Both the position numbers and the translations under genes were made by a program. From NCBI GenBank assembly GCA_019637095.1, contig JAHBWG010000094.1, forward strand, positions 1 through 33,377: a stretch of DNA of 33,377 bases, written 5' to 3'. The number at the start of each line of letters is the position of its first letter. The stretch's first letter is position 1. A model generated the notes under the pieces. It saw nothing but the letters and a program-made list of their open reading frames with translations. It did no database searches and was not told the DNA's origin. Source of the DNA: Sandaracinaceae bacterium. Lineage in GTDB: Bacteria; Myxococcota_A; Polyangia; Polyangiales; Sandaracinaceae. This document shows positions 15,806-18,820 of this stretch, in pieces.

Positions 15806-16995
15806 GCGTCGCGCGCCGCGACGGAGACCGGCTGCTCTTGCCCGGCCTCGCGACCGCGCACTCGCACGCGTTCCAGCGCGCGCTCCGCGGCCGGGCCCAG
15901 CGCGCGCGCGGCTCGTTCTGGAGCTGGCGCGGCCTGATGTACGAGCTCGCGAGCCGCGTCTCGCCCGACGACGTCCACGCCCTCTCGCGCTTCGCGTTCG
16001 CCGAGCTCGCGCGCGCCGGCGTCACCGCGGTGGGCGAGTTCCACTACCTGCACCACCAGCCCGACGGAACGCCGTACGCGGAGCGCACCGCGCTCGCCGA
16101 CGCGGTCATCCGCGCCGCGCTCGAGGTGGGCCTGCGCATCGCGCTCTTGCGCGTGATCTACGAGCGGCCCGGGCACGGCCGCGCGCCCGAGGGCGCGCAG
16201 CGCCGCTTCGTCGACGCGTCGCTCGACGACGCGCTCGGCGACGTCGAGGCGCTCGCGGCGCGCTGGAGCGGCGAGCCGCGCGTCCGCGTCGGCGTCGCGC
16301 CGCACAGCGTGCGCGCGGTGACGCTCCCATCGATCGTCGAGGCCGCGCGCTTCGCCGAGGCGCGCGCGATGCCTTTGCACATGCACGTGAGCGAGCAGCG
16401 CCGCGAGATCCACGAGTGCCTCGCCGAGCACGGCGCGCGGCCGGTGCGCCTGCTCGCCGACGCGGGCGTGCTCGGCCCGCGGTTCGTCGCGGTCCACGCC
16501 ACGCACCTCGCCGCCGACGAGGTGCGCGCGCTCGGCGGCTCGTTCGCGTGCCTCTGCCGCACGACGGAGCGCGACCTCGGCGACGGCCTGCCGCCCACGC
16601 GCGAGCTCGTCCGGGCGGGCGCGCGCCTCTGCTTCGGCGTGGACAGCCACGCGTCGAGCGATCCGTTCGAGGAGATGCGCGCGGCGGAGCTCGACGAGCG
16701 CTCGCGCACCGAGCGGCGCGCGCTCCTCGAGGCGCCGGTCTTGCTCGAGGCGGCGAGCGCGGGCGGCTACGCGGCGATCGGGATGGCCGGCCTCGAGCGC
16801 GAGGACGAGGTCGCGCTCGACGCGCGCGACGACGCCCTCGCGGGCGCGCGTGACGCGACGCTCGACGACGCGGTCGTCTTCGGCGCTGGCCCGCGCGCGG
16901 TGCGCTCGGTGTGTGTCGGCGGCGCGGCGCTCGCGCTCGACGCGACGCGCGCCCGCGAGGAGTTCGAGCGCCGACTCTCGGCGTTGGCCCTCTGA
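15802..16995 (+). CDS. hutF: HutF-like formimidoylglutamate deiminase (amidohydrolase)
   Basis: This 397-residue protein is an amidohydrolase of the N-formimidoyl-glutamate deiminase type, a step of histidine breakdown that yields N-formylglutamate and ammonia. Signatures are PGLATAHSHAFQRAL (metal ligands H20, H22), SFWSWRGLMYELA, VTAVGEFHYLHH, PLHMHVSEQ, VAVHATHL, and ACLCRTTERDLGDG with GVDSHASSD. It is shorter than typical HutF proteins (about 450 residues) because the N-terminal beta segment before PGL is only about 12 residues. The GTG start overlaps the HTTM stop (GTGA) and no earlier in-frame start is evident without entering that gene. No other hut gene is nearby and the pairing with an HTTM protein is odd. 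A related amidohydrolase with another substrate cannot be excluded. Confidence 0.83.
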   Translation: MSVARRDGDRLLLPGLATAHSHAFQRALRGRAQRARGSFWSWRGLMYELASRVSPDDVHALSRFAFAELARAGVTAVGEFHYLHHQPDGTPYAERTALADAVIRAALEVGLRIALLRVIYERPGHGRAPEGAQRRFVDASLDDALGDVEALAARWSGEPRVRVGVAPHSVRAVTLPSIVEAARFAEARAMPLHMHVSEQRREIHECLAEHGARPVRLLADAGVLGPRFVAVHATHLAADEVRALGGSFACLCRTTERDLGDGLPPTRELVRAGARLCFGVDSHASSDPFEEMRAAELDERSRTERRALLEAPVLLEAASAGGYAAIGMAGLEREDEVALDARDDALAGARDATLDDAVVFGAGPRAVRSVCVGGAALALDATRAREEFERRLSALAL

Positions 16996-17018
16996 GGGGT
17001 TCGTGCGAGCATGCGGAC

Positions 17019-17930
17019 ATGGTGAAGCGCGCGTACGAGATCTGGGCCGAGAGCTTGCTCGGCAAGGTGCTCGGCGAGCGCTATCGGTTGAACCACGTCA
17101 TCGGCCGCGGCTCGTTCAGCGTGGTGTTCCACGCGACGCACACGTGGACGGAGCGGGCGGTCGCCGTGAAGCTGCTCCGGCTCGACATCGCGAGCTCGCA
17201 CGACGCGATGGCCAAGCGCTTCCTGCGCGAGGCGAAGGCGGCCGCCGCGCTGCGACACAAGAACGTCGTCGACGTGCTCGACATGGGCGAGGCCGAGGGC
17301 ACGGCGTTCATCGCGCTCGAGCTGCTCGTGGGCGAGGAGCTCTCGGTGCGCCTCGCCCGCGAGGGCCGGCTCCCGCTCGACGAGACGCTGCGCATCCTGC
17401 TGCCCGTCTTCGACGCGCTGCACGCGGCGCACGCGCGCGGCATGATCCACCGCGACGTGAAGGCGGAGAACGTGTTCCTGCACGACGAGGAGGGCGAGCT
17501 GGTCCCGAAGATCCTCGACTTCGGCACGGTGCGCACCGCGTACACCGAGGGCGAGACGCCGCTGACGGAGGCGGGCGCCATCCTCGGGACGCCGCACTAC
17601 ATGGCGCCCGAGCAGATCACCACGGCGTCGGTGACGGGGAAGGCCGACGTGTGGTCGTGCGGGGTGCTCGCGTTCCGCATGCTCTCGGGTCGCTTCCCGT
17701 TCGATGGGCCCAACCCGACGATCGTGCTCGCGAACGCGTTCACGCAGCCGGCGCCCTCGCTCGCGAGCGTGGCGCCCGAGCTCGCGCCCGGCGTGGTCGA
17801 GGCGGTCGATCGCGCGCTGGCGAAGTCGCCCGAGGCGCGGCACGAGGACATGCACGCCTTCATGGATGCGCTGCTCGCAGGCGCCCGCGAGGTCGGGCTC
17901 CACCCGGTGGACCCACGCAAGCGAGGTTGA
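17019..17930 (+). CDS. Hanks-type serine/threonine protein kinase, soluble
   Basis: This 303-residue protein is little more than a kinase domain. It has glycine loop IGRGSFSVVFHA, ATP-binding K51 (VAVKLL), catalytic loop HRDVKAENVF with D146, metal-binding DFG (D167), GTPHYMAPEQ in the P+1 region, and ADVWSCGVLAFRMLSGRFPF. The Arg before the catalytic Asp marks an RD kinase that may need activation-loop phosphorylation. There is no membrane segment or sensor domain, unlike many PknB-type kinases, so it is probably cytoplasmic. It starts 23 nt after the HutF-like gene. It is followed after 6 nt by a Pro-rich tail-anchored protein that may be its substrate or membrane partner (inference). ATG 17019 is chosen since alternative starts are out of frame or leave non-kinase sequence. 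Confidence 0.93.
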   Translation: MVKRAYEIWAESLLGKVLGERYRLNHVIGRGSFSVVFHATHTWTERAVAVKLLRLDIASSHDAMAKRFLREAKAAAALRHKNVVDVLDMGEAEGTAFIALELLVGEELSVRLAREGRLPLDETLRILLPVFDALHAAHARGMIHRDVKAENVFLHDEEGELVPKILDFGTVRTAYTEGETPLTEAGAILGTPHYMAPEQITTASVTGKADVWSCGVLAFRMLSGRFPFDGPNPTIVLANAFTQPAPSLASVAPELAPGVVEAVDRALAKSPEARHEDMHAFMDALLAGAREVGLHPVDPRKRG

Positions 17931-17936
17931 CGGTCG

Positions 17937-18647
17937 ATGAGCTCCGATCCCAGCGACGAGGACGAGGCACCCGCGACGGTCGTCGCCGGGGCGTCGTTCG
18001 ACGAGCTCCTGGCGCAGCGCGGGGAGCCCCCGGTGTTCACGCCGAGCGTCGGCTGGGGCGACGACATGGCGTACGCGGCGACCGCGATCAGCGCGTCCTA
18101 CGACGAGCAGGTCCGCGAGCGCGGCGGCGAGCTGCCGGCGAGCGAGCCGCCGCCGGCGTATGCGCCGCCACCGGTCGCGCCGCGGCCGGAGGCGAGCCGG
18201 CCGCAGGCGGCGTACGCGCCGCCGCCCGCCGCGCCGCCGATGGCGTTTCCGCCGCCCGCGGCCTCGCCGCCGCTGACCTCGCCCGCCCCGCACGCGCCGC
18301 AGGGCCAGCCGCCGCTCGCCAAGACGATGGCGCTCGACATGTCGCAGAGCCCGCTCGCGTACCTCGCGCCGCCGGCGCAGCCGGCGCCCGGGTCGTGGCC
18401 CTCGGCGCCGGCGGCGTCGCCGATGCCGGCGCGTCCGGCGCCCGGGTCGTGGCCATCGGCGCCGGCGGCGTCGCCGATGGCGGCGCATCCCGGGCCCGCG
18501 TGGTCGCCTCCGGCGCCGGTCGCGGCGCCCGCGCCGTCGGGCCAGCCGAGCCGCTTCGTGCTCTTCGCGGTCACGTTCGGCGTCGTCTTCCTGCTGGGCA
18601 GCCTCTGCTTCGGTGGCGCCGCCGCGTATCTGCTGTTCGCGCGCTGA
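17937..18647 (+). CDS. Pro/Ala-rich tail-anchored membrane protein
   Basis: This 236-residue protein has an acidic N-terminus, a long low-complexity Pro/Ala region (about residues 60-205) and one hydrophobic helix at the C-terminus (RFVLFAVTFGVVFLLGSLCF to YLLFAR). This topology places nearly all of it in the cytoplasm. It includes a 54-bp tandem duplication. Short Thr motifs (EAPATVVAGAS near the start and LAKTMALDM at mid-chain) resemble candidate kinase target or FHA-binding sites; this is inference. The gene directly follows the Ser/Thr kinase by 6 nt, so the pair is likely to be one unit. The stop codon lies at the edge of the inverted-repeat element. Only composition and context support the functional guess. 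Confidence 0.72.
   Translation: MSSDPSDEDEAPATVVAGASFDELLAQRGEPPVFTPSVGWGDDMAYAATAISASYDEQVRERGGELPASEPPPAYAPPPVAPRPEASRPQAAYAPPPAAPPMAFPPPAASPPLTSPAPHAPQGQPPLAKTMALDMSQSPLAYLAPPAQPAPGSWPSAPAASPMPARPAPGSWPSAPAASPMAAHPGPAWSPPAPVAAPAPSGQPSRFVLFAVTFGVVFLLGSLCFGGAAAYLLFAR
18381..18488 (+). repeat. 54-bp tandem repeat, two copies
   Basis: The unit begins CCGGCGCCCGGGTCGTGGCC at 18381 and again at 18435, with one C/A difference in the first 45 bases. It encodes an 18-residue Pro/Ala/Ser repeat (PAPGSWPSAPAASPM plus a variable tail) in the tail-anchored protein. Confidence 0.85.
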
Positions 18648-18801
18648 AGGTCTGTCGATGAATCGGACCGAGCACCGGGGTCGAGGTGGGTCCAGCCGCA
18701 AGGCGACGCGAGGAGTCGTGCGAATAGCACGGCGACGAGCGGCAACGCCGCGGATGGGCCCGCATCGGCCGCGGGGCGACGGGAGATTCATCGACAGACC
18801 T
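18648..18801. mobile_element. 154-bp element with perfect 17-18-bp terminal inverted repeats (MITE-like)
   Basis: AAGGTCTGTCGATGAATC (18647-18664) is repeated as its exact reverse complement at 18785-18802. TGA occurs directly outside both 17-bp ends (18645-18647 and 18802-18804), as a 3-bp target duplication would. The interior holds smaller hairpins: GTCGTGC-gaata-GCACGGC, and a CCGCGG-based stem near 18750-18777. No transposase or convincing ORF lies inside. It could be a non-autonomous transposon relic, a structured RNA or a long-stem terminator for the kinase unit. Removing it would leave the upstream stop codon intact. Confidence 0.6.
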
Positions 18802-18820
18802 TGAACCTTCGGCGCCGCCG

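Follow-up and report, generated by a model that had tools for sequence, protein, structure and literature searches.

A palindromic unit at the stop codon of a kinase partner gene

The window, by which we mean the whole stretch of 33,377 nucleotides analyzed here, carries a gene for a Ser/Thr protein kinase (Pkinase domain, PF00069; positions 16911 to 17930, + strand), given for context only, and after it an open reading frame (ORF) for a protein of 236 amino acids with a hydrophobic C-terminal segment (17937 to 18647, + strand). The stop codon of this second gene is the TGA at 18645 to 18647, and a 154-bp unit, AGG...CCT (18648 to 18801), begins directly behind it. The left end of the unit reads AGGTCTGTCGATGAATC (18648 to 18664, + strand); its exact reverse complement occupies 18785 to 18801 (− strand), where the right end reads GATTCATCGACAGACCT, and is followed by a further TGA (18802 to 18804, + strand) that directly repeats the first. 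An earlier note, made from the letters alone, had described perfect terminal inverted repeats, a TGA outside both ends, and a location exactly at the stop of the kinase partner gene; all three were borne out, with a repeat length of 17 bp. The left TGA is presumed to be a copy of the target site, with the stop codon of the 236-amino-acid gene as the insertion point. When the tip pattern was searched across the window with up to 3 mismatches, the only two matches were the ends of the unit (chance expectation, 0.02).

The earlier note had also listed internal hairpins. Over its full length, the unit forms one extended hairpin with imperfections (−110.8 kcal/mol, z = −9.2 versus shuffles). The + strand bears this structure; the fold of the − strand is much less stable (−84.8 kcal/mol, z = −5.1) because the U-G pairs and a G-A motif are present on one strand only. 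The inner part of the unit (18694 to 18754, + strand) is the conserved structured core described below (model R2, 61 nt), which reads GCAAGGCG..GA.GA-hairpin-GA.GA..GCAACGC and combines a tandem G-A motif with covarying stems. The earlier statement that the unit has no coding capacity was not literally correct, since a 48-codon ORF (18658 to 18804, + strand) runs to the distal TGA, with AAGG-N7-ATG in the tip. However, its start codon or frame is gone in most of the 17 full-length copies described below, including copies with 98% identity, and we therefore judged the ORF to be accidental and not a gene.

Copies in the same genome and in relatives

A search of the genome from which the window derives (9.25 Mb in 197 contigs) returned 44 matches, some of which were reverse-strand self-matches. 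About 30 recognizable copies lie at unrelated loci; 17 of them are near full length (88 to 100% identity), and the others are truncated or decayed. The tip, with up to 2 mismatches, matched 56 times in this genome, compared with 0 matches for a reversed-pattern control. A covariance model recovered the element family in five genomes belonging to the same family-level group, with 14, 9, 4, 3, and 2 matches; relatives carry the element at other loci. The arms covary by lineage, reading AAGGTCTGTCGATGAATC in the window's genome, AGAGACTGTCGGTGAATC in genome G005, AAGGTCTGTCCCGAAATC in G006, and (A)AGAGGTGTCTCGAAACC in G001, and each lineage's arm has a near-exact complement at the opposite end.

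In three further assemblies (G023, G054, and G008), many matches to the core are no more than 100 bases away from a contig end; assembly is therefore probably interrupted at the repeats, so that their copy numbers are too low. Solo tips (TGAAGGTCTGTC) were seen directly 3′ of apparent stops at five loci of the window's genome (L072, L073, L074, L077, and L049), without the rest of the element; these are either remnants of decayed copies or a motif of gene ends in its own right.

Target and flanking triplets

In the window's genome, eight copies are flanked by TGA on both sides or by TCA on both sides. Across the window's branch, TGA or TCA borders the young copies at both ends; in older copies, one end has TGA and the opposite one CGA(G). 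The class B copies of this genome (e.g., L005, L011, L013, L018, and L021) have TGA at one end and consistently CTCGAG at the other, and plain duplication does not account for the recurrence of the same C there. In the branch represented by genome G186, TA was read on both sides of 12 of 14 complete copies, with variable neighboring bases, while in the CTAG branches TA frequently lies within CTAG. Taken across branches, these flanks point to a target motif that is short and contains a T, with an exact form that is branch specific.

We also counted the copies in which a tip coincides exactly with the TGA stop of an ORF whose base composition is coding-like. A strict gene caller gave 18 such cases among the 30 copies in the window's genome, and a lax caller gave 23 among the 30. 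The null frequency was estimated at 0.10 to 0.14; the gene caller found 68 to 75% of 400 kb to be coding; it under-calls genes, so nulls of 0.2 and 0.3 were also tried. Even with a null of 0.3, the excess was significant, both for 18 of 30 copies (P value = 6 × 10−4) and for 15 of the 17 full-length copies (P value = 1 × 10−6). Several copies in this genome lie between convergent genes, and the orientation of the core relative to the stop varies. In other branches some members abut TAG, TAA, or TGA, with only a few doing so in G186. The simplest account of the abutment is a target motif combined with survival, in which the TGA of a stop codon is copied, leaving the gene intact.

Empty sites among relatives

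The comparison of relatives yielded one exact empty site, in a pair of genomes (G005 and G008) from a sister branch of the CTAG type, which shares the core with the window's own branch and has other tips. When the flanks of the G005 copy (L124) were joined, 280 of 280 bases were identical to G008; the occupied site reads CTAG-element-CTAG, and G008 has a single CTAG. Flank identity extends over 1,183 bp on the left and at least 1,400 bp on the right. The insertion in this one clean pair was precise, and the element family has therefore moved. A comparison of the complete genomes G001 and G006 gave three further copies (L101, L107, and L104) that one genome has and the other, congeneric genome lacks at the orthologous site, with short junction differences. 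All four cases are insertion polymorphisms, each of which may represent a gain or a precise loss.

A fifth copy (L097) was rejected as a clean empty site against G001: the gene end is kept and the element is absent there, but the downstream sequence is unrelated. The upstream protein at L097 ends normally, like the ortholog that has no element behind it. Together, the roughly 30 copies at unrelated loci and the insertion polymorphism seen in relatives, empty sites included, upheld the earlier proposal of a MITE-type mobile element, and they do not describe a single-copy sequence conserved at the same locus, the situation named beforehand as contrary to it.

A structured core conserved across the phylum

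When 22 elements taken from six genomes were aligned, 94.9% of the cells at paired positions were paired, and 16 pairs had two-sided changes, a level reached in 0 of 500 shuffles. The fold was derived from the same sequences, which makes a partner-sliding control weaker evidence than the shuffles. Between families, only the inner ∼60 nt are conserved, as a hairpin with tandem G-A motifs. The core model matched 44 of 282 Myxococcota genomes, many of them with 5 to at least 19 copies, and the core-bearing elements inspected elsewhere in the phylum are also palindromes of ∼160 bp, with unrelated arms. Across 31 core sequences, covariation was 0.541 compared with 0.135 after shuffling, and cells with two-sided changes numbered 124 compared with 39, in an alignment that was fitted to the model and so favors it.

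The letters CAAGGCG and GCAACGC are kept in the core, as are G-U/G-T pairs in the strand-specific fold. GA on both sides frames one pair that is C-G in 21 sequences and G-C in 8; this arrangement is predicted to form tandem sheared G-A motifs. A core that is strand specific and strongly covarying also lends some support to the structured RNA that had been offered as an alternative, and a stem-forming noncoding RNA carried as cargo is possible. The element had no match in Rfam, where only chance miRNA matches outside it were returned, nor in plasmid and phage BLAST searches, and we found no description of the family in the literature with an open license. An exact 18-mer match in a Nitrospirae metagenome-assembled genome was set aside as a single match in an unrelated sequence context that has no core, and so were three viral-contig matches to an 18-mer of the core, in which the core model found nothing.

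Search for a parent transposase

The ends had not been linked to a known insertion sequence (IS) in the earlier note, and searches by tip pattern and at DDE_Tnp_1 loci likewise found no parent IS. In G000 and G006, no two tips lie at IS distance from each other, and no tip pair surrounds a transposase in the complete G186 genome. The search of IS loci covered those of the DDE_Tnp_1 type in nine genomes; these had no local tips, and ISs with DDE_Tnp_1 were rejected as parents on that ground. IS630-type genes are natural candidates for TA targets. The fragmentation of the window's genome into 197 contigs bears on the failure to find a parent there.

Neither tip nor core lies near the Y1/IS200-type genes or near a RAYT-like tyrosine transposase gene in the window's genome (L095, positions 232 to 1317, contig C62; 361 amino acids; Y1_Tnp, 23 bits), and these genes were accordingly rejected as partners. 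The RAYT-like protein is distant from the known RAYT family (NF047646, 39 bits, E value = 6 × 10−10, cutoff of 80). A GxxExxY gene (PDDEXK_3) was also rejected as an autonomous partner, as a fragment of it lies inside one decayed copy only (L028, 1165 to 1560, contig C162 of the window's genome), where a GAATC motif flanks the insert on both sides, and the intact gene has no tips. Two adjacent copies in G186 were likewise set aside, as they enclose an esterase-like gene and not a transposase.

A probable non-autonomous mobile element and its possible enzymes

We consider it very probable that the unit is a non-autonomous mobile palindromic element, MITE- or REPIN-like, belonging to a Myxococcota-wide superfamily defined by the conserved strand-specific hairpin core; that it is mobile, non-autonomous, and palindromic is well supported. 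A transposase acting in trans would recognize the folded core, the ends, or both, and the unit would be inserted at a short T-containing target (TGA or TCA here and, in other lineages, TA that is often part of CTAG) that is copied on both sides. Insertion at a TGA stop would regenerate the stop and leave the gene intact, and this, in a GC-rich genome, would leave the ends of genes as the chief places where an insertion is tolerated. The process would require no host function, and an incidental effect on 3′-end transcription or mRNA stability is possible. The element is best read as selfish, with stop codons presumably surviving as harmless targets, and its landing there illustrates a way for selfish DNA to establish itself in a densely packed genome while its genes stay unbroken. 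Four findings count against this explanation: the searches by tip pattern (G000, G006, and G186) and at DDE_Tnp_1 loci of nine genomes gave no autonomous element sharing these ends, the TGA/CGA(G) ends of older copies are not a clean duplication, the interior of an ordinary MITE would not be expected to hold a conserved and strand-specific core, and the one clean empty site comes from the CTAG-type sister branch and not from that of the window.

Bacterial palindromic repeats are usually recognized by their tip sequence (MITEs) or as a short tagged palindrome (REPs). For the present element two modes of recognition remain, one based on the tips, by a DDE transposase as for a MITE, and one based on the core of a single strand, as for a REPIN. 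The first, a sub-hypothesis about the enzyme that we hold to be plausible but somewhat short of even odds, is that of a conventional MITE derived from a DDE IS (IS630/mariner-like for TA, IS5-like for TNA) that was lost or unassembled, with the core as a passive relic. The perfect terminal repeats, the TA and TGA direct repeats, and the precise empty site agree with it. So do repeats at five loci of the window's genome (L031, 1500 to 1630; L043, 1400 to 1520; L080; L081; L082; contigs C22, C195, C115, C129, and C137), which have the same tips (AGGTCTGTCGATGAATC/GAGGTCTGTCGAT) around a different interior with GGCCTGGCCTCGAACGGCGCCGTCGG, as expected if the transposase recognizes tips, and which are probably a second element family with the same ends. 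Against it stand the parent IS that the searches by tip pattern and at DDE_Tnp_1 loci did not find and the pattern of conservation: the arms diverge by lineage and the core is kept phylum-wide with compensatory changes, which is the opposite of a passive interior and not expected of an ordinary MITE. With the core kept and the tips free, the evidence leans toward a role for the core.

Known bacterial MITEs (ERIC, Correia/NEMIS, RUP, QMITE) resemble the element in being 100 to 200 bp long and intergenic, with terminal inverted repeats, no protein, TA-type target copies, and a stable transcript hairpin (PMC2229807, PMC10969869). The element differs from them in that it is GC-rich, uses one defined target triplet at stop codons, and has no parent IS that we could find, as well as in its conserved core and diverging tips.

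The second sub-hypothesis on the enzyme, which seems to us possible but doubtful, is that the element is REPIN-like and is mobilized in single-stranded form by a tyrosine (Y1/HUH) transposase of the REP-associated kind; the hairpin of one strand would be the signal, and the stop triplet would be a target beside the cleavage site and not a duplication. It would explain the strand-specific fold with its G-U/G-T pairs, the unequal ends of older copies (TGA/CGAG) are compatible with a target together with a cleavage site borne by the element, and the genome does hold the distant RAYT-like gene. REP/REPIN-RAYT systems (GTAG and CGTC families) are likewise palindromic and sit at gene 3′ ends; GTAG REPs are reported to supply stops with their termini, to lie between convergent genes, and to favor GT pairs in their stems (PMC3733652). 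However, neither that gene nor the IS200-type genes have tip or core nearby, no RAYT carrying the repeat was found, TA and TGA direct repeats flank many copies, and the orientation of the core relative to the stop varies. Moreover, the element consists of one 154-bp palindrome whose terminal repeats are perfect, instead of two tagged REPs of 20 to 40 bp; by inspection, no GTAG- or CGTC-tagged REP pair occurs in the window's element family, while other branches vary.

Conservation across the phylum is confined to the folded core, with tips and targets varying, and this points to recognition based on structure. We tentatively raise a broader version of the mobile reading, one with less than an even chance of being right: a phylum-wide class of mobile elements in which the signal would be the strand-specific folded core with its tandem sheared G-A pairs, as single-stranded DNA or RNA, with arms that are free but complementary, stop-codon-like targets, and a hitherto undescribed enzyme acting in trans.

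Selection for a host-beneficial structure at gene 3′ ends, such as a bidirectional terminator or mRNA stabilizer that spread and was kept because it works there, is improbable. Exact stop abutment, copies between convergent genes, and a very stable hairpin fit such a role, but presence or absence differs among close relatives, decayed copies are common, we noticed no U-tract at the ends, and both orientations relative to the gene occur. One copy, moreover, was read as lying within the apparent signal-peptide start of a lipoprotein gene (L101, G001 2948255 to 2948409) that is intact in G006. Least of all do we favor a translational-coupling cassette like the mycobacterial MIRUs, which are described as small mobile repeats that insert at start codons at gene boundaries, with the gene surviving and an internal ORF coupled to it (PMC12548453), because, despite insertion at a stop and the ORF with its AAGG-N7-ATG in the window copy, the ORF is unconserved, the element is palindromic, and many neighbors are convergent, leaving no downstream gene to couple.

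The Betaproteobacterial repeat element (BRE, bprJ) was compared by description only. In the part of its account available to us, BREs form tandem arrays, and no terminal repeats are described there, unlike the present element; both are GC-rich and multicopy, and the BRE, at ∼90 bp, is class-wide and transcribed and shows signs of mobility (PMC3110155).
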